This document shows positions 1,117 to 30,530 of a stretch of 64,000 nt of DNA, piece after piece. The stretch covers positions 1,364,001-1,428,000 of the forward strand of contig NZ_CP072596.1 of the NCBI RefSeq assembly GCF_017815535.1, given 5' to 3'. Numbering within the stretch: position 1 is the first letter of the stretch; every line of letters starts with the position of its first letter. The DNA comes from Tessaracoccus sp. MC1865 (GTDB lineage Bacteria; Actinomycetota; Actinomycetes; Propionibacteriales; Propionibacteriaceae). Both the position numbers and the translations under genes were made by a program. The notes beneath the pieces were generated by a model that saw nothing but the letters and a program-made list of their open reading frames with translations, ran no database searches and had not been told where the DNA came from.

Positions 1117-2826
1117 GTGAAGCGCCGCGCCGCAGTGTTCTTCGGGCTCATCATCGCCGTGATCCTGTTCTGGATCGGCAACACCGTCTGGCACGATGCC
1201 CGCCTCGGCTACGAGACCGGCGGCTGGGCAGGCGCGTTCGACCACGCCGACGACGGCCTCCGTACCGTTCGGCTGGCCATCTCCACCCACGTCCATGACC
1301 TCCTCGCAGGTCTTGCCCTGGTCGGGTGCGCCGGGCTGGGGTGGCTGTACTACGTCGCTGAGCGGGGTAGGGAACGCCGCGGCGAGGAACACGGCTCTGC
1401 CCGCTGGGGCAGACCACGCGATATTGGGCCGTTCATCAACCCCGACGCCGGCCGGAACCTGCTGCTGACCCGCACCGAACGGTTGACCATCGACCGGCCA
1501 GCCAAGATCCAGCATCAGCGCAACCTCAACGTCATGGTGATCGGCGCCGCCGGCACCGGCAAGTCGCGCAACTTCATCCTGCCGAACATGGCGCGCCCCC
1601 ACTCGTCGTATCTGGCCACCGACCCCAAGGGCGAACTGCTCGCAGCCTCCGGCACCGCCCTGAAGGAGGCCGGCTATCAGATTCGGGTGCTGAATCTGGT
1701 CAACTTCGCAGAGTCCGACCGGTTCAACCCTCTTGCGTATCTGAGGCCCGGGCACGAACCAGAAGACGTCAACCTGATGGCGATCAACATCATCGCCAAC
1801 ACCGACGTGCCCCGCCAACAGATGGCCGGCGGGGGAGACCCGTTCTGGGAGAGGGCCGAAGCCGGGCTGCTCAACGCCCTGATCGGCTTCGTGGCCGCGA
1901 CCTACCCGGCAGGGGATCAGCACCTCGGGTCGGTGATGGATCTGCTGCTCCAGATGCGCGCCAGTGATGACGTCGCCTACACCAGTGAGGTGGATGCGAT
2001 CTTCGAGGGCGCCGCACGGATGCTGGCCGATAACCCGTCGATGCTGCACCACGAGCTGCTGGCGTTCGCGATCGCCAACTACAAGGTTTATCAGCGGGCC
2101 GCGCAGAAAACCGCCGCGTCGATCATCGTGACCATGGGTATGCGGCTGGCACCCCTCCATATCCCGTCGGTGAGGCGTCTGGTCACCGCTGACACGATGC
2201 AGCTGGACCTGGTCGGGTTCGAACCGACCGCGTTGTTCATGGTGCTGCCAGACACGAACAAGCAGTTCGCGTGGCTGTCGGCGTTGATGCTGACCACGTT
2301 CTTCCAACGCGGGGTGTGGCTGGCCGACCGGCAGTACAGCCGCCGGCTGCCCGTGCCGGTGATGTGCTTCCTCGACGAGTTCGCCAACATCGGCAAGATT
2401 CCCGATTTCGACATCCTCGCCGCCACGCTGCGCTCACGTGGGATCTCGTTCCAAGCCGTGATCCAGGCGCTCGGTCAGGGCCAGGCGCTCTACCGTGACG
2501 GCTGGAAAGCGATCCTCGGTAACTGCGACACGGTGCTGTTCCTCGGCTCAGCGGATGCTGACACCAAGGAGTACATCTCCAAAGCGTTGGGCAAGCAGAC
2601 CATCATGGTCACGGACTCGTCTCGCACCAAGGGCCGGCACGGGTCGGACTCCCGATCCCGCAAGTCGCAAGGCCGTGAGCTCCTCACCCCCGACGAGGTC
2701 GGCCGGCTCCCCGGCGACGAGGCGATCGTCCTGATCCGAGGTCTCCCGCCGTTCAAGTCGAAGAAGCTGGCCCCACTTCCTGAGACCACCCCGTACCGCC
2801 ACCAGACGCAGAATGCGAGGATATGA
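1117..2826 (+). CDS. VirD4/TraG-type conjugative coupling ATPase (T4CP)
   Basis: 569 residues, GTG start with GGAGG just upstream. The N-terminus has two hydrophobic segments (about 5-22 and 60-80), then a soluble ATPase. Walker A GAAGTGKS is at about residues 143-150 and Walker B CFLDEF at about 416-421, the arrangement of VirD4/TraG/TrwB proteins. These hexameric inner-membrane ATPases recruit the relaxase-DNA complex and pump it into the type IV secretion channel; the partner here would be the MobF relaxase at 7918-12783. Rest of the secretion channel is not in the window and presumably lies to the left. Family call is firm. Confidence 0.93.
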   Translation: MKRRAAVFFGLIIAVILFWIGNTVWHDARLGYETGGWAGAFDHADDGLRTVRLAISTHVHDLLAGLALVGCAGLGWLYYVAERGRERRGEEHGSARWGRPRDIGPFINPDAGRNLLLTRTERLTIDRPAKIQHQRNLNVMVIGAAGTGKSRNFILPNMARPHSSYLATDPKGELLAASGTALKEAGYQIRVLNLVNFAESDRFNPLAYLRPGHEPEDVNLMAINIIANTDVPRQQMAGGGDPFWERAEAGLLNALIGFVAATYPAGDQHLGSVMDLLLQMRASDDVAYTSEVDAIFEGAARMLADNPSMLHHELLAFAIANYKVYQRAAQKTAASIIVTMGMRLAPLHIPSVRRLVTADTMQLDLVGFEPTALFMVLPDTNKQFAWLSALMLTTFFQRGVWLADRQYSRRLPVPVMCFLDEFANIGKIPDFDILAATLRSRGISFQAVIQALGQGQALYRDGWKAILGNCDTVLFLGSADADTKEYISKALGKQTIMVTDSSRTKGRHGSDSRSRKSQGRELLTPDEVGRLPGDEAIVLIRGLPPFKSKKLAPLPETTPYRHQTQNARI

Positions 2827-7917: not shown

Positions 7918-10900
7918 CTAGCGTTCGTGGCCATGGTGTTGGCTGCGCTCTCGTGTTCGTTCCTGATCGGGTGCTTTGTGCATGGGGCGTCGGAGGGTGT
8001 CGATGAGCTGTTGTTGCTTGACGCGGCGGCGGATCGTGTCGATGGGCGCCCGGTCTGGTGTAGCTGGTGGCCGGGTGAGCGCTTGGATGATCGCCTCGCG
8101 GCTTCGGGACAAGACGTTCTCGACGACGGCCAGGGGGCTGCGTGGGGCTTGGCGTTCGATGCTTCTGAGGGTGGCGGTTGCTGTGGCGACGTCGGCCTTG
8201 GCTTTGTCTGCGGCCGCGAGGCGGGCGAGGCCGGATTCTCCGGGGGCAAGCGGGGCGTTGCGGAGGTGGTGGAGCTGGCTCTGGGCAGCGCGGAGCACGT
8301 CGGCCTGCTGGTTGCGTGCGGTGACCCAGGCGCTGATGGGGGAGACCTGCACGGGCTTGAGTTTCGCTGTCTGGAGGTGCAGCAGGTTCGGCTTCTTCGG
8401 CCGGGTCTGTGTGGGGCGCCGCGCGGGAGCAGGTGAAACCGCTGGAGTCTGGATGGTGACGGGTGTCCGGCGGGCTCGGGTGGCGAGGTCGTCGGGCGCT
8501 GGTGTGGTCGGTGCCGGTGTACGGACGGGCAGAGGGATCCGCATGGGTGGGCGGGTGTCGTCGATGCTGTTGGCGGCGACGATGTCGCGGCGGAGGTCGG
8601 CGGCTGCGGTGTGGAGGACGTGGAGGTCGCGTTGTGGGATGCGGCTGGCGTCGTGGCTCCGCGACGGCGGGGGCAGGGCCTTGCTGGGGTCGTCGTGGCC
8701 GGTGAGGCCACGCCATGTGTCGATCTGCCCTGCGAGGGCTTCCCACCGGGCACGTAGCGGGGTGTCGGGTGCGGGGACCGCTCCGAGGTAGTTGGTGGCC
8801 CAGGGGGCTGGGTTGAGGGCGATAGCTGCGCCCCGGTCACGGATCGCGGCCGCGACGGTGTCGGCCATGTCGGTGAGTGGTTCGCGCCAGGTGGGGGGCA
8901 GGTGCGGATCGTTGAGGCCACGGCCGGGGATGCTCCAGCCGGGAGTGCCGGCGGGCCGCTGGTTGATGCCGGTGTCTGGTTCGTAGGTGCGCAGCTTCTG
9001 CTCGACCCACAGCCCTCGTTGCAGGTCGCTGGCGTTGCGCCAGCGGGTCTGTGCTTCGTCGAGGGTGGCGCCGGCGATCGCGGCGTTGGTCTTGACGTCG
9101 GCGTGGGTGAGGTCGCGGGCGGCGTCTCGTTGGACGTTCTCCACGAACCAGGAGCGTCCGTCCATGCGGGCGCGGATGATGGTTTCCTCGCGGAGTTCAG
9201 CTTCGGTGCGGGTGCGGCCGCGTCGGTCGTCGCGGAGCTGGTCGATACGGCCGGTGAGCCGTTCGATGCGCTGGCCGAGTGCGTGGCGGGAGGGGCTGTC
9301 CGGGTCGTGGGTGAGGAGTTCTCGTGTGAGCTCACGCCGGGCGGTCATGGTCTCTCGGATCGCGCCGCCGATGGTCGTCGCGATGGTGCGGTGGGTGTGG
9401 AGTTGCTCGCGCAGCTCGTCGTCGGTGAGTTGCCCGTGGCGGCGGTCAACCCAGGATGGAACGTCTCGCCCGTCCTTCAGGGCTGCGGGGCGCAGTTCGG
9501 GGCCGACGGCTTGCCGTGCTGCCCGGAGGTCCTGCAAGGCCCCTTCACGGGCCGCTGTGGCGGTGTCCAGGGCGGTGGCGAGCTGGCCGTGGCCCATGGC
9601 GCGGGCAGGGCGGAGCTGGGTGGAGTAGCGGACCGTGGTGGCGGTGGCCAGATGCTTGTTGATGCGCCATGCGATCAGCCCGGTGGGGTCGTCGCCGGCG
9701 GACAGGGAGTCGACGCCGGCGACGAGGGTGAGCATCCGTTCGGCGGTGAATCCGGCGTCTTCTGCGGCAGCGAGCGCGGTGTAAAGCCGGTGGCGTTTGT
9801 CGCTGGTGGTGATCGCCGCGGCGAGCTGCGGGTCCCAGGCGCGCAGCAGGCTGGTGTAGCGCTGTTGGTCGGCGCGCTGCTGCATGTCGCCCAGGATCCG
9901 CACCATCCGTGCGGGGTGGTGGGCTTCGGCGTGCGCTTGGTTGATGAGTTCACGGGCCGAGATGGCTTGCTTGCTGGTGGCTGCGGCGTTGCGGAGCATG
10001 TCTGCGGCCGAGGTGCCGTCGGTGATCGCGTAGACGTGGTTGGAGTGTCGACCTCGAGTGAGGCCGACGTAGAGGGCTTCGCGGCTGGTGGTGTCGTCGA
10101 TGATGAGGTGAGCGTGGTCGACGGTTTGGCCTTGGGCTCGGTGCACGGTGGTGGCGTAGCCGAGCCCGGTGGAGCCGGCGACGTAGTCGGCGGGTAGCTC
10201 GATGCTGCGGCCGAGGTCGTCGACGGCGTCGATGTGGCCGTCGTCACCGATGTCGGTGATGGTCCACACGTCGCCGTTCTTCACGAAGTTGTGGCCTGTT
10301 CCGGTGGTGAGACGGCGGTCGTTTCGGCGGGTGATGATGCGGTCTCCGATGCCAGCGAGGCTGCCGTCAGCCAGCTCGATGCTGCGGTCCATGGTGACGC
10401 TTCCTTCTACCACGCGCTGGTCGTGGGCCATCTGATTGAGCGTGGCCACGGTGTTGTTCGTGCCGGCCATCATCAGCGACGTTTGGCCGTGGTTTTGGTC
10501 TGCTTCCCATGCTTCAACGACGCGAGTCAAGACGTGGGCGTTGGTGCCGCCGTGGACACGGTTGTTGGCCAGGTGCCAGTCGACGTCGCCCTCTTCTCGG
10601 AGCCGGAGCGACGCGGCGGCTTCGTTCTCGTCGACGAATCGGTGGACCTGGTCCAGGCGAACGGCGCCGACCTCGGCGGCGAGCATCCTGAGTGATCCGC
10701 CGGCGCCGATCGCTTGGAGCTGGCGGTCGTCTCCAATGAGGCGGACGAACGCGCCGGCGCGGGTGGCTCGTTCGGTGATCGCGGCGAGATCTCGGGCCGA
10801 CGCCATGCCAGCTTCATCGACGAGGATCACGTCGCCAGCGTTGATGGCGCGGGTGCCGTTGCCGGTATCGAGGAGCCACTTGGCGATGGTGGTTGACGTC

Positions 10901-12783
10901 ATCGACGTGGCCTGCTGGAGCTGCTCGGCGGCAGCGGCAGACACGGTGATTCCGTGGACCGAAACGCCCGCGTTACTGGTGGCAGCGATCGCCAGCTTCA
11001 TCGCGGTGGTCTTGCCGGTGCCGGCCGGACCAATGCCCACGGTCACGATGCTCTCGGAGCACGCGACCTGGTGTGCCAAGTCGATCTGTCCCTGATTCAG
11101 CGGCCCATCGTGATAGGCCAGCGCGGCCTCGAAATGCGCCTGGGAGACGGCGGGAAGGGCCACGTCCTGAGCGGCGTTGAGGAGCAGGTCTTCGGCTTCC
11201 AGCACTGCGGTCGAGGTGTATAGCTCGGCGGCTGGAGGCTGGTAGATCGAGCTGCCGTCGTCGTTGATCAGGTCATCATGGTGGGGCAGATTCAGCCGTG
11301 GTGTGATGGAGAAGCTGGCGTGGGTCAATGCCTCGTGAGTGATCGCCTGGAGGGTCAGATCATCCACGATCCCGGGCTGTGCAGCGGCCCAGATGTTGAG
11401 CCGGGTTTCGATGTGATTGCGGGTCCAGGTCGACTGTTTCGCGGAGACTTCGTCGACCAGTTGTCCGGCGATCTCGGTGATGTTGATCGGCGGTGGAGTC
11501 ACCAGCTGATAGGCGTCCGGGTGCTTCATTGCCCACTCGATCTGGGTGCGCAAACTGTCGGCAGATCGGCCCATGATCTGGTTCCACCGCTGGCGAAGAT
11601 CGTCGCGGGTGACTGCCTGGGACTTCGGTGTTCTGGTGTCCAAAGTGGCCTGTTGCTTGAGGGCCAGGAGTTCCTTGGTTCCGGGTTGACGGCCATGCTG
11701 GTTGACGTAGTCTGCGACGAGTTCTGCGGTGCGTTGGGCGATGGCGATGCTGCGCGAGGAGAACATGTCCAGGTGCTTGTCGGTCACCATCCGCAGTTCC
11801 ATTCCGCGATGGGAACCCGAGGGCGAGACGCGCTGGCGAAGATCGAAGCCGAGCGATTTCAGTTCATCTGCGAGGTGCTTGTTGTACACAGATGAGGCGT
11901 TCATGGTGGCCCGGTAGAGGCTCTGCCCGTCGATGGTGAGCCAGCGGGTGGAGCCGTCGGCTTCAGTGATCTGGACGCGGTTTGCGATGACGACGTGGTC
12001 GTGGAGCTGGGGGTCACCTTCGCGGGATTCCCAGTGCCTGAATCGTGTGGCCAGGAGACCGCTGGTGGTGCGGTAAGCCATGCCGTTGGTGCCGGTTCTA
12101 GCCCGGACGACTTCGGTCTCAAGGAACTCGACGGTGCGCTCGATGGCGCGCTGGTGGGCAGCCTCAAGCGCCGTTGCTTGGGGCTCGTGTGCGATGGCCC
12201 AGGCGACGGACACGGACTTGGGAGCAGAGAAGGTGAGGTCGAATCCGGAGACCGCGTTTTGTCCCTTGGTCAGCTCGGTTGCGAGGAACCTTGCGACCTC
12301 GTGCGGTGCGCCGGCGCGGCCATTTCGGTCGCGGAACATGATGCCTGCTTGGCGCATCCTGACGGCGATCCGTTCGTCTGGGGTGAGGTCTCGACCCAGT
12401 TCGGTTTCGCGCGCAACGGTGGCGTTCTTGATGGCGGTTGCGAGTTCACTATCGGGGGTCTGGTAGCCGTAGAACTTGCGGCCCAGTAGCACGGCTTTGA
12501 GTGCCTGTGTGGCGCTCATTCCGGTGCTCATGTGGTGTGCGACCAGGACGTCGGCGTTGGGGTGGAGGCCTTCGCCAAAGAGGGCCTTCATCTGTGCTTC
12601 GCTGACGGATCCATCGATCCCGAGGCTGGCTGCTCCGCCGCCCAACCACTGGCCTTCAGGTGTTCCCGTTTCGAGGTAGTAGTCGCCTAGTTCCTGGTTC
12701 TTGCCGATGTGGTGATCGGCGCTGACTGTGACGGAGGTGTAGTAGGCGTAGCCGTCTCCAGCGCTGAGCTTGGAGATCGTCAT
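7918..12783 (-). CDS. MobF conjugative relaxase with RecD-like helicase (TraA/TrwC type)
   Basis: 1621 residues from the ATG at 12783 (MTISKLSAG); a longer reading to 12819 adds 12 residues unlike the family. The N-terminal relaxase has the early tyrosines (GYAYYT, about 11-16), GFDLTFSAPKSVS, and the metal-binding HDH at 261-263. The helicase half has Walker A GPAGTGKTT at about 583-590 and Walker B DEAGM at about 650, followed by other superfamily 1 motifs (HRAQGQTVDHAHL). The last ~500 residues are charged, helical and unassigned. It nicks oriT, stays linked to the strand and unwinds it; its probable oriT lies immediately upstream at 12846-12987. Length suits actinobacterial TraA. Confidence 0.93.
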   Translation of the reverse strand: MTISKLSAGDGYAYYTSVTVSADHHIGKNQELGDYYLETGTPEGQWLGGGAASLGIDGSVSEAQMKALFGEGLHPNADVLVAHHMSTGMSATQALKAVLLGRKFYGYQTPDSELATAIKNATVARETELGRDLTPDERIAVRMRQAGIMFRDRNGRAGAPHEVARFLATELTKGQNAVSGFDLTFSAPKSVSVAWAIAHEPQATALEAAHQRAIERTVEFLETEVVRARTGTNGMAYRTTSGLLATRFRHWESREGDPQLHDHVVIANRVQITEADGSTRWLTIDGQSLYRATMNASSVYNKHLADELKSLGFDLRQRVSPSGSHRGMELRMVTDKHLDMFSSRSIAIAQRTAELVADYVNQHGRQPGTKELLALKQQATLDTRTPKSQAVTRDDLRQRWNQIMGRSADSLRTQIEWAMKHPDAYQLVTPPPINITEIAGQLVDEVSAKQSTWTRNHIETRLNIWAAAQPGIVDDLTLQAITHEALTHASFSITPRLNLPHHDDLINDDGSSIYQPPAAELYTSTAVLEAEDLLLNAAQDVALPAVSQAHFEAALAYHDGPLNQGQIDLAHQVACSESIVTVGIGPAGTGKTTAMKLAIAATSNAGVSVHGITVSAAAAEQLQQATSMTSTTIAKWLLDTGNGTRAINAGDVILVDEAGMASARDLAAITERATRAGAFVRLIGDDRQLQAIGAGGSLRMLAAEVGAVRLDQVHRFVDENEAAASLRLREEGDVDWHLANNRVHGGTNAHVLTRVVEAWEADQNHGQTSLMMAGTNNTVATLNQMAHDQRVVEGSVTMDRSIELADGSLAGIGDRIITRRNDRRLTTGTGHNFVKNGDVWTITDIGDDGHIDAVDDLGRSIELPADYVAGSTGLGYATTVHRAQGQTVDHAHLIIDDTTSREALYVGLTRGRHSNHVYAITDGTSAADMLRNAAATSKQAISARELINQAHAEAHHPARMVRILGDMQQRADQQRYTSLLRAWDPQLAAAITTSDKRHRLYTALAAAEDAGFTAERMLTLVAGVDSLSAGDDPTGLIAWRINKHLATATTVRYSTQLRPARAMGHGQLATALDTATAAREGALQDLRAARQAVGPELRPAALKDGRDVPSWVDRRHGQLTDDELREQLHTHRTIATTIGGAIRETMTARRELTRELLTHDPDSPSRHALGQRIERLTGRIDQLRDDRRGRTRTEAELREETIIRARMDGRSWFVENVQRDAARDLTHADVKTNAAIAGATLDEAQTRWRNASDLQRGLWVEQKLRTYEPDTGINQRPAGTPGWSIPGRGLNDPHLPPTWREPLTDMADTVAAAIRDRGAAIALNPAPWATNYLGAVPAPDTPLRARWEALAGQIDTWRGLTGHDDPSKALPPPSRSHDASRIPQRDLHVLHTAAADLRRDIVAANSIDDTRPPMRIPLPVRTPAPTTPAPDDLATRARRTPVTIQTPAVSPAPARRPTQTRPKKPNLLHLQTAKLKPVQVSPISAWVTARNQQADVLRAAQSQLHHLRNAPLAPGESGLARLAAADKAKADVATATATLRSIERQAPRSPLAVVENVLSRSREAIIQALTRPPATPDRAPIDTIRRRVKQQQLIDTLRRPMHKAPDQERTRERSQHHGHER

Positions 12784-12845
12784 CACGGGGCTGAGTATAG
12801 GCCGAACTGGAGGGCACATTTCACCGAGTGGTTAGAAATGCAAGT

Positions 12846-12987
12846 AGTGTGACACTGATGGGCCTCCGATTGCGGAGGTTTCCACTTGTGGCCCATGAGT
12901 GTCTCGACCAACGGTCGATCTCATTTCGTCCATGCTCCGAAGGGCAGGGTGGACGAAACCTGGGAATCGCCACACCGTCTAGGTGTG
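12846..12987. other. Candidate origin of transfer (oriT): four inverted repeats
   Basis: Between the divergent relaxase (start 12783) and the small gene at 13214, four inverted repeats follow one another: GACACTGATGGGCC (12851-12864) with GGCCCATGAGTGTC (12890-12903), 13 of 14 pairing, enclosing CCTCCG/CGGAGG (12863-12868, 12873-12878); TCGACC/GGTCGA (12904-12909, 12913-12918); TTTCGTCC/GGACGAAA (12924-12931, 12951-12958); CACACC/GGTGTG (12971-12976, 12982-12987). An AGTGT-G-ACACT palindrome at 12846-12856 overlaps the first arm. MobF relaxases bind hairpins next to nic and their oriT usually adjoins the relaxase gene. The nic position is not determined. Confidence 0.6.
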
Positions 12988-13213
12988 TCCTTCGCGCGGG
13001 TGCGGTGCTGTCCATCGGTGTGTGCGGGGCGTAGAGCCGTGCACGCTGTGGGCGGGGCTGTGGCCGCTGAGGGTTGTCCATTCATGTGTGCAGGTTGCGC
13101 GTCTCACTTTCTGGCGAAGCTGTGCACATGTGGGCAACCCGAACGCCCCTCCGGGCCTGTGGCCCGGCCGCGCGGCTAGACTGTCCGCACCCCCCCCCAG
13201 CGTGAGGAGCGCC

Positions 13214-15753: not shown

Positions 15754-15775
15754 ATTCTCCTCCAAACGCCTCACC

Positions 15776-15803
15776 GTCAATAATATACCCATCAATGTTA
15801 CAT
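15776..15803 (-). promoter_or_regulatory. AT-rich upstream region with repeated TCAAT, possible operator
   Basis: An AT-rich island in otherwise GC-rich DNA lies 25-50 bp before the two-gene XRE/ImmA module. TCAAT is repeated at 15777-15781 and 15792-15796, and TATATT (minus strand, 15787-15782) could be a -10. A matching -35 is not clear. XRE autoregulation through this site is a guess from position. Confidence 0.3.
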
Positions 15804-15922
15804 CTGTGGGTTTCAAGAATGGTCGTGTCTGAACTGAGGGTGTTAGCCGGCGACTGTCTGCGTCTAGGGAGTGGACATGGTCCGTAACGCGGGCTGTCTC
15901 GTCGTGGTGGTTTCGTGACGGG

Positions 15923-16432
15923 TCAAGCGAGGCGGATTGGGAGGCGTGGGGGTGCGCTGGGTAGGGTTCCGCCGTTGGTGTCGCGGGCGGTGGCCACGGC
16001 GACGCTGAGGGCGTTGTGGCACCAGCCGCTGCGGGTGAGGAAGATGCCGGCGGCCGCGTCGGCGGCCATGGCGTCGCTGATGGCGTCAGCGACGATGTTG
16101 GCGATGGTGAAGCTGCGCGGTGAGTTTCCCTTGGGGCCGCTGCCGTTCAGCTCGGATCGCTGGGCTGGGGTGAGGTGTGCGTGCCGCTCGAGGGCGGCAC
16201 CGACCCATGAGGGCAGGGTGTCATGCTGGCGGTTGTTCTGCCAGTCTGCGAGGAACGCGGCCTTGACGTCGTTGTACTCGGCTTGGGTCATCGACACGCT
16301 CAGTGTGGTGGTGTCGGTGGTGGTGGTGCGAGCTCGTCGTTCGGGGCGTTGTGTGGACTCGGGGTGCGGGTCGCGGATGATGGCATCTCGGTTGCGGTCG
16401 GCCAGGGTGCGGCGGCGGGGCTGGCTGGTCAT
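15923..16432 (-). CDS. ParB-like small partition partner (putative centromere binder)
   Basis: 169 residues. The ATG at 16432 lies two bases inside the parA stop region, so the genes are translationally coupled. The N-terminal ~50 residues are basic and disordered. The middle SVSMTQAEYNDVKAAFLADW looks like a strand followed by helices, similar to ribbon-helix-helix centromere binders paired with small ParA proteins. The C-terminus is Ala-rich and amphipathic. The call rests mainly on coupling to parA. Confidence 0.6.
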   Translation of the reverse strand: MTSQPRRRTLADRNRDAIIRDPHPESTQRPERRARTTTTDTTTLSVSMTQAEYNDVKAAFLADWQNNRQHDTLPSWVGAALERHAHLTPAQRSELNGSGPKGNSPRSFTIANIVADAISDAMAADAAAGIFLTRSGWCHNALSVAVATARDTNGGTLPSAPPRLPIRLA

Positions 16433-16433
16433 G

Positions 16434-17189
16434 TCACTGCTCCTGGGCGTTGATGATGGTGGCGAGGGCGGCGGCGTAGTCGGTGGCGATCCCGGAACCC
16501 GGTGCGTAGCGGCTGACGGGTAGGCCGGCGGTGTAGGCGTCGCGGGCGGCGACTGCTTCCCTGATGGGGGTGGTGACTCGGCCGGGCCATTGCTGCGTGA
16601 GCTGGTCGACGACGTCGCGGTCGAGGAGCCGGCGGGCGTCGTAGCGGGTGGGGATGATCCAGTGGATCTTCTGCCCCCGACGGAGCCTGGGGGCGATCCT
16701 GTGCTCGATGACGTCTTGGAGTCGGGTGAGCTGGTCATAGGCCTCGGTCTCGCACGCCACGGCCGCGATCACCTGGTCAGCGGCAGCGAGCGCGGCGAGC
16801 GTGACCAGGCCGAGCGCTGGCGGGGTGTCGATGACGACGTCGTCCCAGTCGTGGAGGTCGGGCAGGTAGTCACGAAGCGCCGTGATGACCTCGGGTCGCT
16901 GATCCAGGTCGGCCAGATCGTGGGTGCCGGCCAGCACCCACGCGCCGTCGACGCTGGGGGCCGGCACGGCAGCCTGCTCGGCGGTGGCGCTGCCGAGCAG
17001 AACCTCCGACGCGACTGCCTCGACCGGTGAGGAGTCGGTGAGTCCCATGCGGGTGGTGAGGTTGCCCTGCTGGTCCAGGTCGATCGCGAGGACTCTGCGG
17101 CCGCGATCAGCTAGGGCCGCGACGAGGTCGGCGGCGGTGGTGGTCTTCGTGGAGCCACCCTTGGACAGGGCGACGGCGTAGGTCGTCAT
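16434..17189 (-). CDS. parA: ParA-family partition ATPase
   Basis: 251 residues. The deviant Walker A KGGSTKTTTA is at about residues 10-19, Walker A' region ROW VLAIDLDQQGN follows, and Walker B is DDVVIDTPPALG. This is the ParA/MinD family of plasmid-partition ATPases; the lack of an N-terminal DNA-binding domain places it among small (type Ib-like) ParAs. It works with the coupled downstream protein on a centromere, possibly the repeated CACTAAC-like sequence just upstream (17200-17222). Its presence suggests the element has, or had, a plasmid-like phase. Confidence 0.87.
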   Translation of the reverse strand: MTTYAVALSKGGSTKTTTAADLVAALADRGRRVLAIDLDQQGNLTTRMGLTDSSPVEAVASEVLLGSATAEQAAVPAPSVDGAWVLAGTHDLADLDQRPEVITALRDYLPDLHDWDDVVIDTPPALGLVTLAALAAADQVIAAVACETEAYDQLTRLQDVIEHRIAPRLRRGQKIHWIIPTRYDARRLLDRDVVDQLTQQWPGRVTTPIREAVAARDAYTAGLPVSRYAPGSGIATDYAAALATIINAQEQ

Positions 17190-17255
17190 CGAAAGATCAT
17201 CCTTACTAGTGGTGTTAGTGAGTGTAGCGGGGCTAGTGTCGACAGCGGTGTGGTG

Positions 17256-17541
17256 TCAGCCGTTCGGCTGACGCTTCTTCTCGAACTCCCGGCGGGCCTC
17301 GACGATGAGGAGGCGGGCGCAGTCTGGGCAGTACCAGTGGGCAAGGCTCGGGCGGCGCTTCGGGTCGTCGGGGCGGAGCAGCTTGCGGATCATCTCGCTG
17401 ATCTCGGTGCAGGGTCGCCAGCCGCGCTCCTGCGCGGCGCCTGCTGCGGTCTGCTTGTCGCCCTTGGCGATCCAGGTGCGGGGGGGCGTATCCCCGGCAG
17501 GCGGCTCGTCGGCAGGTGAACTGCCACGCGATGGGTTCCAT
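17256..17541 (-). pseudogene. Small zinc-ribbon-like protein gene with frameshift at a C7 run
   Basis: The ATG at 17541 has the conserved leader CTAGGAG-N8-ATG. Its frame reads MEPIAWQFTCRRAACRGYAP and then loses protein-like character. After a run of seven C (minus strand; G7 on plus, 17480-17486) the +1 frame reads a coherent protein: RTWIAKGDKQTAAG, GWRPCTEI, LAHWYCPDCARLL and a basic end, stopping at 17256. One fewer C would join the two into ~95 residues with a CxxC knuckle. It may be a real indel, a slippage-controlled gene or a sequencing error. Confidence 0.6.
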
Positions 17542-17591
17542 GTGAGTACTCCTAGTGGTCTGAGTGAGGGTGGTGGGGTGAGCGGTTGTGC

Positions 17592-18890
17592 TTAGGGGGC
17601 CATTGTGTCGTCGAGGTCTGACATTTCTGGGGGGTTGGCGATGATGTGGGCGTAGTCGGGTTCGCTGGCGAGGGTGTTAGTGAGGTGGGCGATCGCGGCG
17701 GCGGCGGAGGCGATCTCCTGATCGCGAGCGGATGCGGGGAGCTGGTGGATGAGTCGGCCAGCGGCGGCAGCGATCGCGTAGCGCTTGTGGAGGTTGTCGG
17801 TGTCGATGTTGGGGTCGGTGAGCATGTCGCGGATGAGGGTGGAGGCCAGCGACGGGGCGATGCTGGGCAGTTGCAGGGCGATGGTGAGGCTGCCTGGGTC
17901 GTGCTCGAAGGCTTCGGCGGGGTCCTTCGGGGTTTGCTGGTCGAGGTGCGAGCTGAGGATCAGCTCGCGCGGGTCCAGCCCGTGGGCGGTGTAGGTGGCG
18001 AAGTCGCGTGCTGCGGCTGCCCGTCCGGCTGCGTCGGCGTCAGTGGCTGCCAGGACGATTCGGCTGGCGGGGGCGGCGGCGGTGATGAGCGCGGCCTGGT
18101 CATCGGTTAGGGCGGTTCCCATCGGGGCAAGTCCGACGGCGGAGCCCTGCCCTGCCAGGGTGATGGCGACGGCGTCCATGGGCCCCTCGACTCGGACCGG
18201 GGTGGCTCCGCGGTTCAGTGCGGCGCGTCCTTCGTCGAGGCCGAACAGGAGCTGGCCCTTGTCGAAGATGGTGGTGGTGGGGCTGTTGATGTACTTGGGG
18301 GTGCCGGCGGGGGCGCCGGGGGCGCAGCGGGCGGAGAACCCGACGATGAGACCGGCGCTGTTGGTGACGGCGAAGGTCACGCGGTCGCGGAAGATGTCGA
18401 TAAGGGTGCCGCGCTTGCTCACGGTGGCGAGCCCTGCGGCGACGAGGTCGGCGTCGGCGGCGTTGAGGGTGGCGCGAAGGTGGTCGACGAGGGTGGTCCA
18501 ACCTGCCGGGGCGTAGCCGATGGTGTAGCCGGCGGTGTCGATAACCGGGCCGAAGCGTGCGTGCATGTAGCGCTGGGCTCCCGAGCCGGTGTACTGCCCG
18601 GTGTAGAAATCGGCAGCCGCCTGGACGAGGCGCTGAAGGTGGGCATCCTCGGCGGACAGTGCCGGTGCTGTGGTGACCGTGGCGGTCATCGCGGCGCGGA
18701 GGATCTCCAGCGTCTCGTTCGGGCTGGCGTCCGGGGCGATCCGGGTGAGGAGCGCTGACGCGGTGTCCTCAGCGGTGACCAGCTGCTCGACGGCGGTCTT
18801 GAGCTCGGCCCACAGCGGTGAGCCGGTCAGGATGCCGATCTCACGGGCGGGCATGGTGTCGAGGAGGGCCTCGTCGAGCGTGCGGGTCAT
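17592..18890 (-). CDS. DnaG-like primase core (catalytic core plus toprim) without zinc finger
   Basis: 432 residues. Residues ~85-200 match the DnaG N-terminal catalytic core (YMHARFGPVIDTAGYTIGYAP, DIFRDRVTFAV, FSARC, PKYINSP, FDKGQLLFGL). The toprim part follows with the acidic VEGPMDAVAI (Glu near 231) and AATDADAAG. The usual N-terminal zinc-binding domain is absent. Such truncated primases are typical of actinobacterial plasmids and prime replication or the transferred strand. AAGGAA precedes the ATG. It shares orientation with parA and the small genes upstream, suggesting a replication/maintenance block. Confidence 0.85.
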   Translation of the reverse strand: MTRTLDEALLDTMPAREIGILTGSPLWAELKTAVEQLVTAEDTASALLTRIAPDASPNETLEILRAAMTATVTTAPALSAEDAHLQRLVQAAADFYTGQYTGSGAQRYMHARFGPVIDTAGYTIGYAPAGWTTLVDHLRATLNAADADLVAAGLATVSKRGTLIDIFRDRVTFAVTNSAGLIVGFSARCAPGAPAGTPKYINSPTTTIFDKGQLLFGLDEGRAALNRGATPVRVEGPMDAVAITLAGQGSAVGLAPMGTALTDDQAALITAAAPASRIVLAATDADAAGRAAAARDFATYTAHGLDPRELILSSHLDQQTPKDPAEAFEHDPGSLTIALQLPSIAPSLASTLIRDMLTDPNIDTDNLHKRYAIAAAAGRLIHQLPASARDQEIASAAAAIAHLTNTLASEPDYAHIIANPPEMSDLDDTMAP

Positions 18891-18922
18891 GGGTCTGGGT
18901 TCCTTGCTTGGGAGTCTACGGC

Positions 18923-19273
18923 TTAGGCGCCGGCCGGGGTGTGGCCGAGGAGTAGATCGGCGGCTGCCTGGGGGATCGAGGTGAACTCCTCGTCATCGTC
19001 GCCAAGGATGAGGACGTCTCCGACGAGCGGGCCGGTGGGGTGGCCGAACAGGAGAGTGGCCGGCATGTTGACCCCCCGGCGACCGGTGATCCGTCCCCAC
19101 TCGTCGACCACGACGACCAGACCGGCCTCCTCGGCAACGTCGCTGTAGACGGTCTCGATGTAGTCGGCGCCGATCGCCGCAGCGATGGTGCGCCAGTGGT
19201 TCTCGACCTCGACGAGAGTGGGAGTGCCCTGATCAGGGATGAGAAGGCCGGTGATGGTGGCGGTGTTGCTCAT
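18923..19273 (-). CDS. DUF3846 domain protein
   Basis: 116 residues. The pattern fits DUF3846: a central VYSDVAEEAGLVVVVDEWGRITGRRGVNMPA-type core (residues ~42-72) followed by GPLVGDVLILG. These small proteins are found on actinobacterial plasmids and phages, often next to ArdA-like or DUF4192 genes; function unknown. CTAGGAG with ACTCACC precedes the ATG, a leader shared with four other genes in this block. Confidence 0.72.
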   Translation of the reverse strand: MSNTATITGLLIPDQGTPTLVEVENHWRTIAAAIGADYIETVYSDVAEEAGLVVVVDEWGRITGRRGVNMPATLLFGHPTGPLVGDVLILGDDDEEFTSIPQAAADLLLGHTPAGA

Positions 19274-19310
19274 GGTGAGTTCTCCTAGCGGGGTGAGTGG
19301 TGTGAGTGGG

Positions 19311-19529
19311 TTAGGCGGTGACGCGGCGGATGGCGTCGTCGATGAGTCGCTGCTGGTTGCGGCTGGAGGCCAGGGTGGTGATCTGGTCGGACCACCAGGA
19401 CAGGTAGCGGTCGCTGAAGCGGTCGCCGTCCTTGGTGACGAGGATGGTGCCCTTGGGTCCGGTGATGTTGACGCCGGAGTTGCCCAGGTCGTTGGTGTAG
19501 CTGGTGACGGTCACGGTATCGAGGGCCAT
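19311..19529 (-). CDS. Small plasmid-type protein, unknown
   Basis: 72 residues starting at the ATG at 19529, directly after the shared CTAGGAGCACTCACC leader. It begins with a beta-rich segment (ALDTVTVTSYTNDLG, TILVTKDGDRFSDRY) and ends in a helix (NQQRLIDDAIRRVTA). Longer frames extend into the upstream repeat cassette but are not conserved between cassette copies, so they are not part of the gene. No family recognised. Confidence 0.6.
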   Translation of the reverse strand: MALDTVTVTSYTNDLGNSGVNITGPKGTILVTKDGDRFSDRYLSWWSDQITTLASSRNQQRLIDDAIRRVTA

Positions 19530-19939
19530 GGTGAGTGCTCCTAGTGGTGCGTGTGGGCTTGGCTGGTCCCGCCTTTGTTTTTGCCCTTCTGGGCGATGGG
19601 AATCCTGGACGGGAGCGGGGTTGCTGTCCGCCCCCGGAGCCCGGGGACCGGAGCGAAATCGTCGGCGGAGTATGCGAGCTTGCGAGCGCGTCGGTGATTT
19701 CGTGAGGACCGGTAGGGAGCGCGGAGCGCTGGGGGTGGCGGCGTTCTCGCGGACGGCCACGATGGAGACGCCAGAAGGGAAAAATTGGGTTGACACGTAG
19801 TGTCTGGGGTCGCGCCGTAGGCGTGTCGTTGTGGCACGCGGAGCGTGCTGCCGGCCCTGTGGGCCAGTGGTCTGCCGGCGCCGTAGGCGTCGACGTTTCG
19901 GGGTTCTGGGGTGTGCGAGGGGATTGGTTCCCCTCGCCC
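19527..19939. repeat. Hairpin-rich intergenic cassette, copy A
   Basis: This non-coding stretch is nearly identical by eye to copies at 21475-21892 and 22829-23158. In the direction of the minus-strand genes it ends exactly at the ATG of the gene it precedes. Small perfect hairpins follow each other: GACAC-GTA-GTGTC (19792-19804), CGCC-GTA-GGCG (19813-19823), GCACGC-GGA-GCGTGC (19834-19848), GGCCC-TGT-GGGCC (19853-19865), CGCC-GTA-GGCG (19879-19889) and GCGAGGGG/CCCCTCGC (19915-19937). Open frames in it carry indels between copies, so it is not coding. Confidence 0.85.
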
Positions 19940-19958
19940 GGGCCCCGTCGGGGCCCGG
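19915..19958 (-). terminator. Paired hairpins after the 201-residue gene
   Basis: On the minus strand, 20-60 bp after the stop at 19978, come CCGGGCCCC-GAC-GGGGCCCGG (19958-19938, 9-bp stem, triloop) and GCGAGGGG-AACCAAT-CCCCTCGC (19937-19915). No T-run follows. They probably end the upstream transcript before the next cassette-driven gene. Confidence 0.5.
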
Positions 19959-19977
19959 AGCGTTGGGTGTCGTTCGG

Positions 19978-20583
19978 CTACATGGTCTCGGCCGCGATGT
20001 CGTAGCCCTTCCATGGGCTGCGTCCGGCCACCGCGCGGCTCGCGGATGGATGTTCGCGGGCGGTGACGATCGGTGCGCCGTCGAACTGCCATTGGGCCGG
20101 GTAGTGTTCCTGAGCCCACGCGGTGACGTTCTTCGTCTTGGCGGGGACGGCGGGCAGGTCGCGCCATCCGGGCATCGCGTGGTCGTGCCACGCGATCACC
20201 ACCTCGCTTTCGGCTCCGATGCGGTGCCATTGGCACTGTTCGCAGATCGCCTGATACATGAGCTTTCCGGGCAGCGGTGCGGCGGTGTGGTCGTGGTCAT
20301 CCTCGTCGCAGCGGGTATCTGCGGACAGGACCACGAGGCTGTGGCCGGACTCCAGATTGACGTCACGCACTGTGAAGAGCGGGTTCCACGTGTGCCACAT
20401 GTGGCTGCGCGGGATGCAACCGAAGTGGCCGTGCTCCGCGATGTAGCGGTCCCACGCGGCTTCCAGCTCCGTCACCGGGTAGTAGTCGGTGGTGTAGGCG
20501 AGCGGCGCGCCGTGCCAGGGGGTCTCAGCGACCTCCTGGCGGCGCAGCTCGTCGAGGTCGAACAGGCAGTCTTGATCCAGCAT
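19978..20583 (-). CDS. Plasmid-borne protein resembling DUF6349
   Basis: 201 residues. It opens MLDQDCLFDLDELRRQ, then WHGAPLAYTTDYYPVTELEAAW, RSHMWHTWNP, CDEDDHDHTAAPLPGKLMY and ends RSPWKGYDIAAE. This order of conserved Trp/His/Cys blocks is what I recall for DUF6349, a family on actinobacterial plasmids; the name is from memory and not checked. CEQCQWHRIG with nearby His may bind a metal. It starts 4 nt after the stop of the 90-residue gene upstream. Confidence 0.65.
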   Translation of the reverse strand: MLDQDCLFDLDELRRQEVAETPWHGAPLAYTTDYYPVTELEAAWDRYIAEHGHFGCIPRSHMWHTWNPLFTVRDVNLESGHSLVVLSADTRCDEDDHDHTAAPLPGKLMYQAICEQCQWHRIGAESEVVIAWHDHAMPGWRDLPAVPAKTKNVTAWAQEHYPAQWQFDGAPIVTAREHPSASRAVAGRSPWKGYDIAAETM

Positions 20584-20587
20584 GGTC

Positions 20588-20860
20588 CTAGCTCTCGTCG
20601 TCTCGGATGCGGATGTGGGTGACCTTCGGCAGCGCAGCTGCGAGAGTGAGGATCCACTCGTAGGCGGCGCGGGTGCCCTCGATGTGGATGACCGCGTCGC
20701 TGGGCGTGTCGTTCTCGACGACGTCGGCCAGCATGTCGAGCCACTTGGCGAACCGCTCGCCGCTGTGGTCGCTGGTGAGGCTCTCGTGGACGGTGAGGTG
20801 GGGGCTGCTCCAGATGGCGTCGCCCTTCGGGGTGAGCGCTGCGCAGACGATTTCGGCCAT
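20588..20860 (-). CDS. Small hypothetical protein
   Basis: 90 residues, acidic, with a beta-alpha-beta look: AEIVCAALTPKGDAIW, a middle helix FAKWLDMLADVVEND and a final KVTHIRIRDDES. No family recognised. It sits between a 105-residue gene and the DUF6349-like gene with short gaps, all minus strand, so the four genes 21477-19978 form one probable transcript. Confidence 0.6.
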   Translation of the reverse strand: MAEIVCAALTPKGDAIWSSPHLTVHESLTSDHSGERFAKWLDMLADVVENDTPSDAVIHIEGTRAAYEWILTLAAALPKVTHIRIRDDES

Positions 20861-20887
20861 GATCGGGTCGCCTTCGAGTGGTGAGTG

Positions 20888-21205
20888 TCAGTGGGTGGGG
20901 AACTTCGGGACGGGGGCGATCTCGAAGATGTCGCCCTCGACGTAGTTGAGCATCTGGCCGGTGGCTGGGTGGGTCGCGGTGTAGTGGTAATCACCGTCGA
21001 TCCAGTCGATGTTCCATCCGGCGTCCATGAGCGCGTCGACGAGCTGATCGTCGCCGCCGGACCCGGCGAAGAAGGCGATGGTGCCGCCTGCGGCGAGCTG
21101 AGGGTCGCTGCCGAGGATGCGGCCGACTTCCGCGACGGTGGTGGGGCGCTGGGTACGGATCAGATCGAGCTGGGCGGCGATCGCGGCCCAAAAGGTGGAG
21201 AGCAT
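20888..21205 (-). CDS. Small hypothetical protein
   Basis: 105 residues from the ATG at 21205, with AAAGGA 5 nt upstream fixing the start. The C-terminal half (DALMDAGWNIDWIDGDYHYTAT..., residues ~60-95) has a beta-hairpin character and a final NYVEGDIFEIAPVP. No recognised family; neighbours are likewise small plasmid proteins. Confidence 0.6.
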   Translation of the reverse strand: MLSTFWAAIAAQLDLIRTQRPTTVAEVGRILGSDPQLAAGGTIAFFAGSGGDDQLVDALMDAGWNIDWIDGDYHYTATHPATGQMLNYVEGDIFEIAPVPKFPTH

Positions 21206-21219
21206 GCGGGTGGGTCCTT

Positions 21220-21477
21220 TCAGTGAGCGGCGCGGTAGTAGGAGAGGCCTGCGGGGGTGACGGCGTGCACCTGGCCCTGGGTGCGGCCGTAGGAGTCGGC
21301 CGGCAGGGCGTTGAAAGCCGCCTCGGCCTTGTCCTTGGTGGTGTAGAGGTTGGCCCCGTGGCCGGGGGTTCCCGGGTCGATGTTCGGGTGGCCTTGGTTG
21401 AGGGCGGCGCCGAACACCGTCACCCACTCCGAGCCGGTTTCGCGGCGACCGATGGCCCAATACGTCGCGTTCTTCAT
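21220..21477 (-). CDS. Small hypothetical protein headed by repeat cassette B
   Basis: 85 residues. The ATG at 21477 follows CTAGGAGCACTCACC. The sequence alternates short strands and a helix (WAIGRRETGSEWVTVFG, LYTTKDKAEAAFNALP) and ends TPAGLSYYRAAH. It could be a single-domain DNA- or protein-binding module but no family is recognised. It is the first gene after cassette B. Confidence 0.6.
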   Translation of the reverse strand: MKNATYWAIGRRETGSEWVTVFGAALNQGHPNIDPGTPGHGANLYTTKDKAEAAFNALPADSYGRTQGQVHAVTPAGLSYYRAAH

Positions 21478-21892
21478 GGTGAGTGCTCCTAGTGGTGTGT
21501 GTGGGGCTTGGCTGGTCCCGCCTTTGTTTTTGCCCTTCTGGGCGATCGTGGATCTTGGGCGGGAGCGGGGTTGCTGTCCGCCCCCCGGTAGCCCGGGGAC
21601 CGGAGCGAAATCGTCGGCGGAATAAGCGAGCTTGCGAGCGCGTCGGTGATTTCGTGAGGACCGGTAGGGAGCGCGGAGCGCTGGGGGTGGCGGCGTTCTC
21701 GCGGACGGCCACGATGGAGACGCCAGAAGGGAGAAAATGGGTTGACACGTAGTGTCTGGGGTCGCGCCGTAGGCGTGTCGTTGTGGCACGCGGAGCGTGC
21801 TGCCGGCCCTGTGGGCCAGTGGTCTGCCGGCGCCGTAGGCGTCGACGTTTCGGGGTTCTGGGGTGTGCGAGGGGATTGGTTCCCCTCGCCCC
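21475..21892. repeat. Hairpin-rich intergenic cassette, copy B
   Basis: Second copy of the cassette, between the DUF4192 gene stop (21932) and the 85-residue gene start (21477). The same hairpins occur: GACAC-GTA-GTGTC at 21744-21756, CGCC-GTA-GGCG at 21765-21775, GCACGC-GGA-GCGTGC at 21786-21800, GCGAGGGG/CCCCTCGC at 21867-21889. Differences from copy A are a few substitutions and indels around 21541-21595. Confidence 0.85.
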
Positions 21893-21918
21893 GTGGGGGC
21901 CGGCTCGATGCCGGCCCC
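21867..21918 (-). terminator. Paired hairpins after the DUF4192 gene
   Basis: Read on the minus strand, GGGGCCGGC-ATCGA-GCCGGCCCC (21918-21896, 9-bp stem) is followed by GCGAGGGG-AACCAAT-CCCCTCGC (21889-21867), 14 bp and more after the stop at 21932. The first hairpin differs completely in sequence from the one after the 201-residue gene yet has the same size and place. Confidence 0.5.
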
Positions 21919-21931
21919 GGGGAGGCTGTGG

Positions 21932-22831
21932 CTACGGTCGCCACGTCTTCGGGTCGATCCCTCGGGTCAGGATGGCGTCAAGGATGGGCACCAGCTCGTG
22001 GTCCGGGTCGACGTTGCGCAGCTGCTCGTGGGACTCGGTGAGGGCCGCGCCACCTCCGCTGAGCCACGCTGCCCACGCCATGATGGCCACGGCGTCACCC
22101 TCGGCCTCGTCGAGGGCGTTGCGGCGGATCTCGATGAGGCGCGGCAGCCACTGGCTGGCCTCGTCACGGGTCATCGTGTCGATGAGGGCGCCAATGTGCT
22201 CGTGCACGCCAGCCACGGCCTGAAGGGCCTCCGCCATCGTCAGCGCCGACACCCTCGCCAGCAGATTGCGGGTGAACTCGTAGCGCGCCTCGCTGGTGGG
22301 GTGCTGCTCCTGGAGCTCTGCGAGCGCGTCGGGCTCCTCGTCGGCTAGTGCGCTGCGGTCGGCTGCCGGGCGCATGGCGGCGACGACGTCGTCGCGGCTC
22401 TGGTGGATCGTGTGATCCTCGTACAGTGCGCTGAGCACTGGGGTGCTGGACCGGAGATCGACGGGCTGCGCGTCGTAGATGCTGCCGTCGTCGGCGGCGT
22501 GCCATGCGGTGGCCGCGTCCGTGACGAGGAAGTGAAGCATGTCCACCTCGAAGTGTGCGACGAACGCTGCGACCTTCCTCGCGATGGCGTGGGGGTCCTG
22601 CTCGGTGTAGACCAGCACGATGATCTCGGTGACGTCGTTGGTGTGGATGGCGTCGACCAGCTGGTTCGGGGTTGTATCCATCTCGGACAGGTCGAGACGT
22701 CCGCAGAACAGCGGGTTGTTACCGCGCATGGCCATGACGACCACGGACTCGCTCGGGTAGAACCCGTACATGGTGACGGTGGTGGCAAGCAGGTCGTCGA
22801 CGGTGCTGATGCTCATGGTCTTCTTGTTCAT
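21932..22831 (-). CDS. DUF4192 domain protein
   Basis: 299 residues from the ATG at 22831. The start has the DUF4192 pattern: STVDDLLATTVTMYGFYPSES, VVVMAMRG, RLDLSEMD, then TEIIVLVYTEQD. The C-terminal half is helical (ARYEFTRNLLARVSALTMAEAL, MAWAAWLSGGGAAL). DUF4192 proteins are common on actinobacterial chromosomes and plasmids; function unknown. It is preceded by cassette C and followed by cassette B, making it a one-gene unit between repeats. Confidence 0.82.
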   Translation of the reverse strand: MNKKTMSISTVDDLLATTVTMYGFYPSESVVVMAMRGNNPLFCGRLDLSEMDTTPNQLVDAIHTNDVTEIIVLVYTEQDPHAIARKVAAFVAHFEVDMLHFLVTDAATAWHAADDGSIYDAQPVDLRSSTPVLSALYEDHTIHQSRDDVVAAMRPAADRSALADEEPDALAELQEQHPTSEARYEFTRNLLARVSALTMAEALQAVAGVHEHIGALIDTMTRDEASQWLPRLIEIRRNALDEAEGDAVAIMAWAAWLSGGGAALTESHEQLRNVDPDHELVPILDAILTRGIDPKTWRP

Positions 22832-23158
22832 GGTGAGTGCTCCTAGCGGCGTGTGGGGGGCTTGGCTGGTCCCGCCTTTGTTTTTGCCCTTCTGGGCGAT
22901 GGGAATCCTGGACGGGAGCGGGGTTGCTGTCCGCCCCCCGGAGCCCGGGGACCGGAGCGAAATCGTCGGCGGAATAAGCGAGCTTGCGAGCGCGTCGGTG
23001 ATTTCGTGAGGACCGGTAGGGAGCGCGTAGCGCTGGTGGTGGCGGCGTTCTCGCGGACGGCCACGATGGAAACGCCAGAAGGGAAAAATTGGGTTGACAC
23101 GTAGTGTCTGGGGTCGCGCCGTCAGGCGTGTCGTTGTGGCACGCGGAGCGTGCTGCCG
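22829..23158. repeat. Hairpin-rich intergenic cassette, copy C (shorter)
   Basis: Third copy, upstream of the DUF4192 gene. It matches copies A and B up to 23158 and then diverges, lacking the last hairpins. GACAC-GTA-GTGTC is at 23096-23108. The next hairpin carries an extra C but only in its loop (CGCC-GTCA-GGCG, from ~23117), leaving the stem intact. GCACGC-GGA-GCGTGC is at 23139-23153. Confidence 0.82.
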
Positions 23159-23274
23159 ACCTTTCCCCCGGTGTGGCACGAGCTGCACGGTGCCTCGGTT
23201 CTTAGGCGGCGATGTCGTGGCGCGGGCGACAGGTGGGAGTGGCTGCTGGCCGATCGGACAGTTTCCTGATCGAA

Positions 23275-23286
23275 GACCGTCCGGTC
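23275..23286. promoter_or_regulatory. Palindrome in the region upstream of the peptide/two-component operon
   Basis: GACCG-TC-CGGTC (23275-23286) lies in 23159-23517, a 359-bp gene-free stretch between cassette C and the signal-peptide gene. CCGATCGG lies nearby (about 23250). GCTATC just downstream of the palindrome could be a -10. It could be a binding site for a response regulator, but nothing beyond position supports this. Confidence 0.3.
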
Positions 23287-23517
23287 GGACACGCTATCCC
23301 GGTAGGCAGTCCTCTCTCCCGGAGCGTTCAGTAGCGTGAGGCGGGACACAAGCAGATCGTTGGGCGTCACGGATGGAACTGCCGTTTGCGGGCGAGTCTC
23401 ATCCGCACGTCGGAGTGGGCCGTGATGTGCTGCCGTAGCTGGGGGCAGGGTCTCGGACGTGAGTTTGTGTCGGTAGGTTGGCGGCAGATCATGCCCGTAA
23501 AGCTTGAGGGGACCCTG

Positions 23518-30483: not shown

Positions 30484-30530
30484 CCGCGTTCATCGACGCC
30501 AACCGCGACGACATCGTCGCGGGACGGCGT

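Follow-up and report, generated by a model that had tools for sequence, protein, structure and literature searches.

The 64,000-nt stretch of Tessaracoccus sp. MC1865 contig NZ_CP072596.1 analyzed here (hereafter, the window) carries an element of conjugative type in its left ~23 kb, and the early region of this element contains three copies of a non-coding cassette (hereafter, copies A, B, and C). The cassette is a real, conserved structure of an actinobacterial conjugative element. We propose that each cassette probably works like Frpo of plasmid F, as a predicted single-stranded DNA (ssDNA) promoter of the element, and most likely represents a predicted new sequence class of single-strand promoter.

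Copies A (19521..19940), B (21475..21891), and C (22829..23161, with the outer ~84 nt missing) all lie on the − strand, and B and C are 96.6% and 96.1% identical to A where aligned. A DNA search found no fourth copy in the 3.04-Mb genome at E ≤ 0.001. Every copy terminates in the same ribosome-binding site (RBS) and ATG of a different − strand gene (72, 85, and 299 aa; mutually unrelated). An earlier note on this DNA, made from the sequence alone, had described a near-identical, non-coding repeat ending at the ATG of unrelated small genes; the repeat, the ATG, and the lack of relatedness were confirmed, whereas "small" does not hold for the 299-aa DUF4192 gene behind copy C. Indels of 1–2 nt separate copies A–C, and more separate the homologues described below, so the cassette does not behave like coding sequence, which was ruled out on these grounds. 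A transposon was not favored given the three genomic copies at E ≤ 0.001, all ending at RBS and ATG; the ends of insertion sequences (IS) were not searched for.

Alignment with homologues placed the core of the cassette in its gene-proximal half, as one rod hairpin of about 221 nt flanked by triloop hairpins. The rod spans 19567..19787 in copy A, 21516..21739 in copy B, and 22870..23091 in copy C, on the + strand, the one thought to fold. Its closing stem P1 (CCCTTCTGG paired with CCAGAAGGG) is followed by an internal bubble, then by stem P2 (TGACCGGC with GCCGGTCA; in other versions TGATCGGCC with GGCCGATCA, or GTTCG with CGAAC) and by a long inner stem in which both arms differ by lineage (CGAAATC/GATTTCG, GAATCCG/CGGATTC, and CGACCTGGTCG/CGACCAGGTCG). 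A hairpin inside the rod (AGCGC-GGA-GCGCT; 19718..19730 in copy A) has the loop GGA, GTA, or GCA in 11 of 12 aligned cassettes, the middle base varying and the G and A remaining constant. Beside the rod of copy A, also on the + strand, stand GACAC-GTA-GTGTC (19792..19804), hairpins around CGCC-GTA-GGCG (19811..19825) and GCACGC-GGA-GCGTGC (19831..19851), and, at the far end, an outer hairpin GCGAGGGGA-TTGGT-TCCCCTCGC (19915..19937), which is found in copy B as well.

The pairing of the rod is conserved across lineages. In a 10-row MAFFT alignment that was not fitted to any model, 16 of 52 pairs showed a two-sided change that keeps pairing, compared with 8.1 ± 1.4 in shuffled alignments (reached in 0 of 500), and 94.0% of the cells were paired. 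An 11-row alignment to which the first cassette of genome G248 was added gave 22 of 52 pairs (shuffled 9.4 ± 1.7; 0 of 500) with 93.4% paired, although this alignment was fitted to the model and hence leans towards it. Sliding the partners by 1–3 columns dropped pairing to 36–47%, and the inner stem alone had 10 pairs with double changes. These counts do not represent independent events, because the sequences are related and copies A–C are near-identical. Against column shuffles of the 10-row alignment (RNA parameters), the consensus fold reached z −10.9 on the + strand and z −7.7 on the − strand, with 0 of 160 shuffles as low in each case.

A covariance model (R1; 227 positions, 52 pairs) built from ten sequences matched 13 cassettes in 8 actinobacterial genomes. 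Ten of these are matches by construction: the three of the window (copies A, B, and C at 234, 228, and 244 bits), two in G041, one each in T. flavescens (G015), G009, and Pseudoclavibacter helvolus (G415), and two in T. antarcticus (G008; a and b). Outside the model are a cassette in G248, from another family of the order (G248a; 53.5 bits), a weak second one there (G248b; 14.5 bits, E 5e-4 within its own locus), and one in G067 (35 bits), the far half of which may be cut by an adjacent gene (locus L035; a transposase by eye). What the homologues have in common is mostly the gene-proximal half, and the two G041 cassettes differ from each other (85% and 74% identity to copy A). The triloop hairpins named in the earlier note are present; they lie mostly upstream of the main structure, the rod, which the note had not described. 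Its view that the structure is the selected object is supported by stem covariation, the test it had set. It had also suggested looking for copies in other actinobacterial plasmids, and 8 genomes, that of the window included, have cassettes that match one model.

DNA searches at E ≤ 0.001 returned 6 of 198 genomes in the family, one of them (G042, locus L008) with a 37-nt match where R1 finds nothing, and 42 of 391 genomes in the order, with full-length matches in 5 (the window's genome G000, G008, G009, G015, and G041); the matches in the other 37 (40–46 bits) were dropped without individual inspection. R1 itself matched 2 of 57 genomes of the family. A pattern scan of genome contigs gave 20 stretches, 4 of them true (P. 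helvolus, two in T. antarcticus, and one G041 assembly holding two cassettes). The other 16 were without the GAGGACCGG core and were taken as chance, two IMG/VR pattern matches likewise had no such core, and one further match was rejected as lying inside a 442-aa open frame with only 9 bits from R1. Searching for similar DNA returned one plasmid record, that of T. flavescens (NZ_CP019608), for both copy A and the P. helvolus cassette, and nothing for the G067 leader; no phage matched the cassette T. antarcticus b. Two weaker matches were seen in genomes with known cassettes: a possible fragment of a second cassette on the T. flavescens plasmid (18253–18319, locus L011; R1 12.5 bits, 37-nt match at 97%), between ArdA and an IS481 transposase gene, and a second R1 match in P. 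helvolus (16600–16671, locus L086; 18.5 bits, E 0.0034), at a distance of slightly more than 2 kb from its cassette.

Among leaders of ArdC anti-restriction genes at large, 1 of 30 loci, drawn from 39 ArdC matches in 34 of 296 genomes, matched R1 at E 0.001 or better. The ArdC leader of G425 (loci L096/L128, upstream of the ArdC gene 9254–10192) folds strongly (z −5.9) and has the apical motif in common, a motif present in 2 of 394 genomes; it precedes ArdC, ParB, SSB, and TrwC genes in that order. R1 did not match this leader when the whole of it was searched, so we treat it as a possible distant relative, not counted among the 13, which may represent a second, related class. By eye, and unconfirmed, an A-rich stretch comes after a GCCC-loop-GGGC hairpin in the ArdC leader of G659 (locus L093), resembling the predicted transcript start of the family.

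The folding strand is probably the + strand, which is the template of the genes behind the cassettes and not their mRNA; this is well supported, not proven. We counted perfect triloop hairpins (stem ≥ 4) in ten cassettes, each extended by 150 nt on its upstream side, leaving out B and C as near-copies. On the + strand there were 23 G-N-A loops (1.3 ± 1.1 in shuffled sequences), 0 loops of the mirrored class T-N-C (1.1), and 22 others (20.4). The GNA triloops occur in 8 of 10 lineages (none in T. antarcticus a and G248a), and 17 of the 23 are closed by a C-G pair; 5 of the remaining 6 are one conserved core motif that is otherwise paired in the rod. With stem ≥ 5 and wobble pairs allowed, the cassettes of the window hold 16 GNA, 0 TNC, and 9 other triloops, and the rest of the window 22, 35, and 461, respectively. 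Stable DNA hairpins with d(GNA) triloops were reportedly described by Hirao (1994) and Yoshizawa (1997). The stability of d(GNA) triloops closed by a C-G pair is described in PMC5815330. Alignment folding with wobble pairs also favored the + strand, by 25.6 kcal/mol compared with 15.4 ± 5.0 in column shuffles, a modest effect that 5 of 160 shuffles equaled.

If the + strand is the transferred strand (T-strand), it would enter the recipient with the end at the origin of transfer (oriT) first, and the cassette on it would fold into a rod mimicking double-stranded promoter DNA. The 3' arm would supply the non-template −35 and −10 boxes and the 5' arm the template, continuing into the gene; RNA polymerase would then start near the rod base and transcribe back toward oriT. 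The genes behind the cassettes would be made before the second strand exists and would be protective in the new cell, and completion of the duplex would abolish the fold and turn them off. Three near-identical copies would join three operons in one transient establishment regulon. The analysis shows that the fold is conserved, what type of element this is, and which genes lie around the cassettes; from these we infer the identity of the T-strand, transcription from ssDNA, the start site, and the transience.

A candidate −10 box (nAnnAT) lies in the internal bubble of the rod on the + strand (A, 19758..19763; B, 21710–21715; C, 23062–23067) and was present in 12 of 13 cassettes, G067 being the one without it. 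A putative −35 box (TKG...), a weak consensus match, precedes it by 16 nt (A, 19736..19741; B, 21688–21693; C, 23040–23045), with the spacing being 16 nt in 11 of 12 cassettes and 15 nt in G248b; both patterns were chosen after the alignment had been seen. On double-stranded DNA, these boxes would be oriented away from the gene. A double-stranded sigma-70 promoter was rejected, as a consensus scan of 19400–23300 was empty. Since the consensus matches are weak and the scan returned no standard promoter, we are least sure of the promoter boxes among the steps proposed. A more specific version, which we consider rather unlikely, is that the cassettes form an actinobacterial ssDNA promoter class of their own, unrelated in sequence to Frpo: a T-strand regulator combining the promoter rod with a series of GNA minihairpins, which would keep the strand free of SSB or be read by a factor encoded on the element, so that recognition would be independent of the normal sigma consensus. 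An ECF-like sigma factor gene was found among the transfer genes (6782–7381, −), and its product is a possible reader of unusual promoters. Our literature search of open-licence PMC papers retrieved no report of such promoters in Actinobacteria among the matches listed.

The proposed promoter function has a precedent in Frpo/ssi of F and ColIb-P9. These are repeated non-coding sequences, a few hundred nt long, that lie in the leading region and form a T-strand stem-loop before ssb and other leading genes (PMC9849209, PMC11541004), and Frpo-dependent early expression in recipients has been demonstrated (PMC9849209). When refolded, the F region before ssb gave one long rod, and a second copy (89% identical) lies about 5 kb away. 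The cassettes of the window are comparable in being repeated, non-coding, and predicted to fold into a rod before genes that may be leading genes. The cassettes differ from Frpo in being actinobacterial, in −35/−10 boxes far from the Escherichia coli consensus, and in having several GNA minihairpins beside and inside the rod, compared with one GNA triloop in each F copy. By comparison with the F region, they would not be members of the Frpo sequence family; the lack of sequence homology bars the family name, and homology is not part of the mechanism. The early promoters for the virion RNA polymerase of phage N4 are likewise described as template-strand hairpins recognized in ssDNA form, whose 3-base loop contains a sheared G:A pair (PMC4496689). 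Those are short single hairpins for a phage-encoded polymerase, in contrast to the ~221-nt rod of the cassettes.

The position of the relaxase gene gives a predicted direction of transfer. In 4 of the 8 genomes (G000, G041, G015, and G067; G015 is circular), the sequence downstream of the cassettes encodes a TrwC relaxase, on the strand of the cassettes and within about 2.5 to 11 kb, and plasmid F likewise has its leading and tra genes in one orientation. The relaxase gene is typically in the lagging region of conjugative plasmids (PMC11541004). The side with the cassettes is accordingly predicted to enter the recipient first, which would make the + strand the T-strand. The oriT candidate is the intergenic region upstream of the relaxase gene (12820..13207), which has inverted repeats. 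Beside an inverted repeat, at about 12850 (12820–12870), the identity between the window and G041 falls from ~100% to ~70%, which suggests that oriT may lie there, with recombination at oriT possibly behind the switch. The rule for reading an oriT inverted repeat relative to the nicked strand comes from R388. Near the candidate, by eye, both arms of a small hairpin (12960–12990) have changed from one element to the other, window or G041, with pairing kept (CACACC..GGTGTG and CACGTC..GACGTG).

Several observations weigh against a promoter on the folded + strand. The candidate boxes fit the consensus poorly (2–3 of 6 bases for −35 and 3–4 of 6 for −10), the sigma-70 scan was empty, and the three cassettes showed no similarity to F 50000–67500 (best E 0.22). 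Folding each rod singly (DNA parameters, 40 shuffles) gave unremarkable energies for copies A and C (z −0.8 each) and lower ones for B (z −2.2) and for T. flavescens, P. helvolus, T. antarcticus b, and G248a (z −4.0 to −7.2). Single-sequence z-scores do not distinguish the strands: whole cassette A has z −1.79 on the + strand and −3.18 on the − strand, its 231-nt core has z −0.77 on the + strand, and, among 12 rods, z is lower on the + strand in six and on the − strand in six, with the raw energy lower on the + strand in 12 of 12. The wobble gain of the + strand owes much to composition, as 24 of 160 shuffles gain as much. Regarding transfer, no TrwC gene is near a cassette in 3 of the 8 genomes (far away in G009 and G415, and none at the search threshold in G248), and the G008 contig ends before the relaxase geometry can be read. 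The inverted repeat and the identity switch do not tell which strand is nicked, as the repeat can be read for the other strand too. Finally, plasmid pLS20 has leaders of this layout with the transferred strand as non-template (PMC8708921), so layout alone proves nothing.

Part of this evidence would suit a structured 5' leader RNA, in which an upstream promoter drives the operon and an RNA fold (attenuator, riboswitch, or stability element) regulates it. The cassette ends at the RBS, stem covariation is expected of RNA too, and the mRNA-sense strand is both far below its column shuffles and better in single-sequence z for whole cassette A. We nevertheless consider a leader RNA unlikely. The GNA signature is on the strand complementary to the mRNA, where a leader would not explain it, and G-U pairs add only 1.8 kcal/mol to the consensus fold of the mRNA-sense strand, a gain matched or exceeded in 159 of 160 shuffles; the + strand advantage, as given above, was reached by 5 of 160 shuffles. 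The scan of 19400–23300 returned no promoter that could drive such a leader, and cmscan of the window at gathering scores gave one Rfam match, ALIL at 30438–30572, outside the cassettes.

The nearest Gram-positive parallel is EGeRS1 of pLS20-family Bacillus plasmids, where structured leaders are described as recurring ahead of ardC and further establishment operons (PMC8708921). This common layout could mean that the cassettes are establishment regulatory sequences acting by whatever mechanism operates on pLS20 and not through an ssDNA template, which we regard as very improbable. On pLS20, the transferred strand is described as the non-template strand and the predicted fold as branched, in up to 600 nt (PMC8708921), whereas the cassettes form one rod, probably on the template strand, where their loop signature lies. 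The 601-nt pLS20 ardC leader has one triloop hairpin (stem ≥ 4), with GNA on the mRNA-sense strand and none on the template strand, and the pLS20 relaxase is MOBP as opposed to TrwC/MOBF here. The authors of that work considered an ssDNA promoter highly unlikely for pLS20 and left the mechanism open (PMC8708921).

Several of the genes behind the cassettes would fit an establishment function. An ArdC gene is directly behind 3 of 13 cassettes (G041a, G248a, and G067). The T. flavescens cassette is followed by an M78 gene and then SSB, genes for ArdA and an N6 methylase lying upstream and oriented alike, and the G248b cassette by a 63-aa gene and then SSB. Others precede ParB_N (G009), DprA (T. 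antarcticus a), DUF6349 (G041b), and a 96-aa relative (62%) of window gene 20888–21205 (T. antarcticus b); behind the P. helvolus cassette, on the other strand, is an IS gene by eye. ArdC, SSB, ParB, and DprA qualify as early genes here by position only. Plasmid leading regions typically contain anti-restriction and SSB genes (PMC11541004), and that of F has SSB and a ParB-family gene. In the window, copy A precedes the 72-aa gene (19311–19529), then DUF3846 and a DnaG-like primase gene; copy B precedes the 85-aa gene (21220–21477), then 20888–21205, 20588–20860, and DUF6349; and copy C precedes DUF4192, so that DUF4192 and two small unknowns are directly behind the copies. Among the genes that follow the window copies, domain searches recognized DUF3846, DUF6349, DUF4192, and the primase; none of the three genes next to a copy is a known anti-defence gene.

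This gene context also bears on two further explanations. A single-strand initiation site (ssi/sso-like), whose fold lays a primer for second-strand synthesis with proximity to gene starts being secondary, is improbable to us, even more so than a leader RNA. The element does encode a DnaG-like primase, and a paper by Masai and Arai (1997), going by its title, reportedly ties Frpo to both transcription and primer RNA synthesis. However, priming alone would not need the window copies to end at the RBS and ATG of different genes, nor the homologues to precede genes. The least probable reading is that of recombination sites that shuffle gene cassettes (attC-like, or targets of homologous recombination). 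Folded ssDNA sites do exist in integrons, and homologous cassettes precede different genes in different elements. On the other hand, attC lies 3' of its gene, whereas the cassettes are 5' of the gene, up to the RBS and ATG (an integron integrase was not searched for), and the two G041 cassettes are not alike. Shuffling by homologous recombination may occur as a by-product. Among the three options raised in the earlier note, the single-strand promoter fits best given the loop signature, the homologues, and the gene context, and the RNA leader and the recombination site fit worse.

The genes of the element were called by a simple open reading frame (ORF) finder and ORF lists and identified by domain searches. 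The conjugative part comprises an M23 peptidase, a coupling protein of a type IV secretion system (TraG/VirD4 type; 1117..2826, +), and the TrwC/MOBF relaxase-helicase (7918..12819, −; PF08751, 2.4e-79 with query 7918–12783). Beyond the relaxase, all 12 finder-called genes at 15124–22831 and a 508-aa ORF at 14027–15553 are on the − strand, and this run holds a helix-turn-helix/M78 protein, a ParA-like ATPase (16434..17189), the DnaG-like primase (17592..18890), DUF3846 (18923..19273), DUF6349 (19978..20583; the G041 homologue is directly behind a cassette), DUF4192 (21932..22831), and small unknowns. The helix-turn-helix and M78 peptidase protein (14027–15553, −) matched PADLOC RmrA models (best 3.1e-73). 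The first 13,967 bases of the window are 97.5% identical to G041 overall, with only the final ~1.1 kb before the relaxase gene near 70%, and the cassette region aligned to G041 piecewise at 69–85%; thus, sharing of the transfer half is recent, in contrast to an early half in which the two differ. Elsewhere in the window, the ALIL pseudoknot (Rfam RF01497; 30438–30572, +) lies between two open frames resembling an IS3-type transposase, of which we take it to be the probable frameshift site.

Single-strand promoters are established for enterobacterial plasmids. In Actinobacteria, the covarying rod ahead of ArdC, SSB, ParB, and DprA genes provides a defined test sequence, together with a covariance model to find more, and the asymmetry of GNA triloops may help to distinguish leaders that fold as DNA from those that fold as RNA. 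For the element itself, the cassettes mark DUF3846, DUF6349, DUF4192, and several small genes as candidates for establishment or anti-defence functions.

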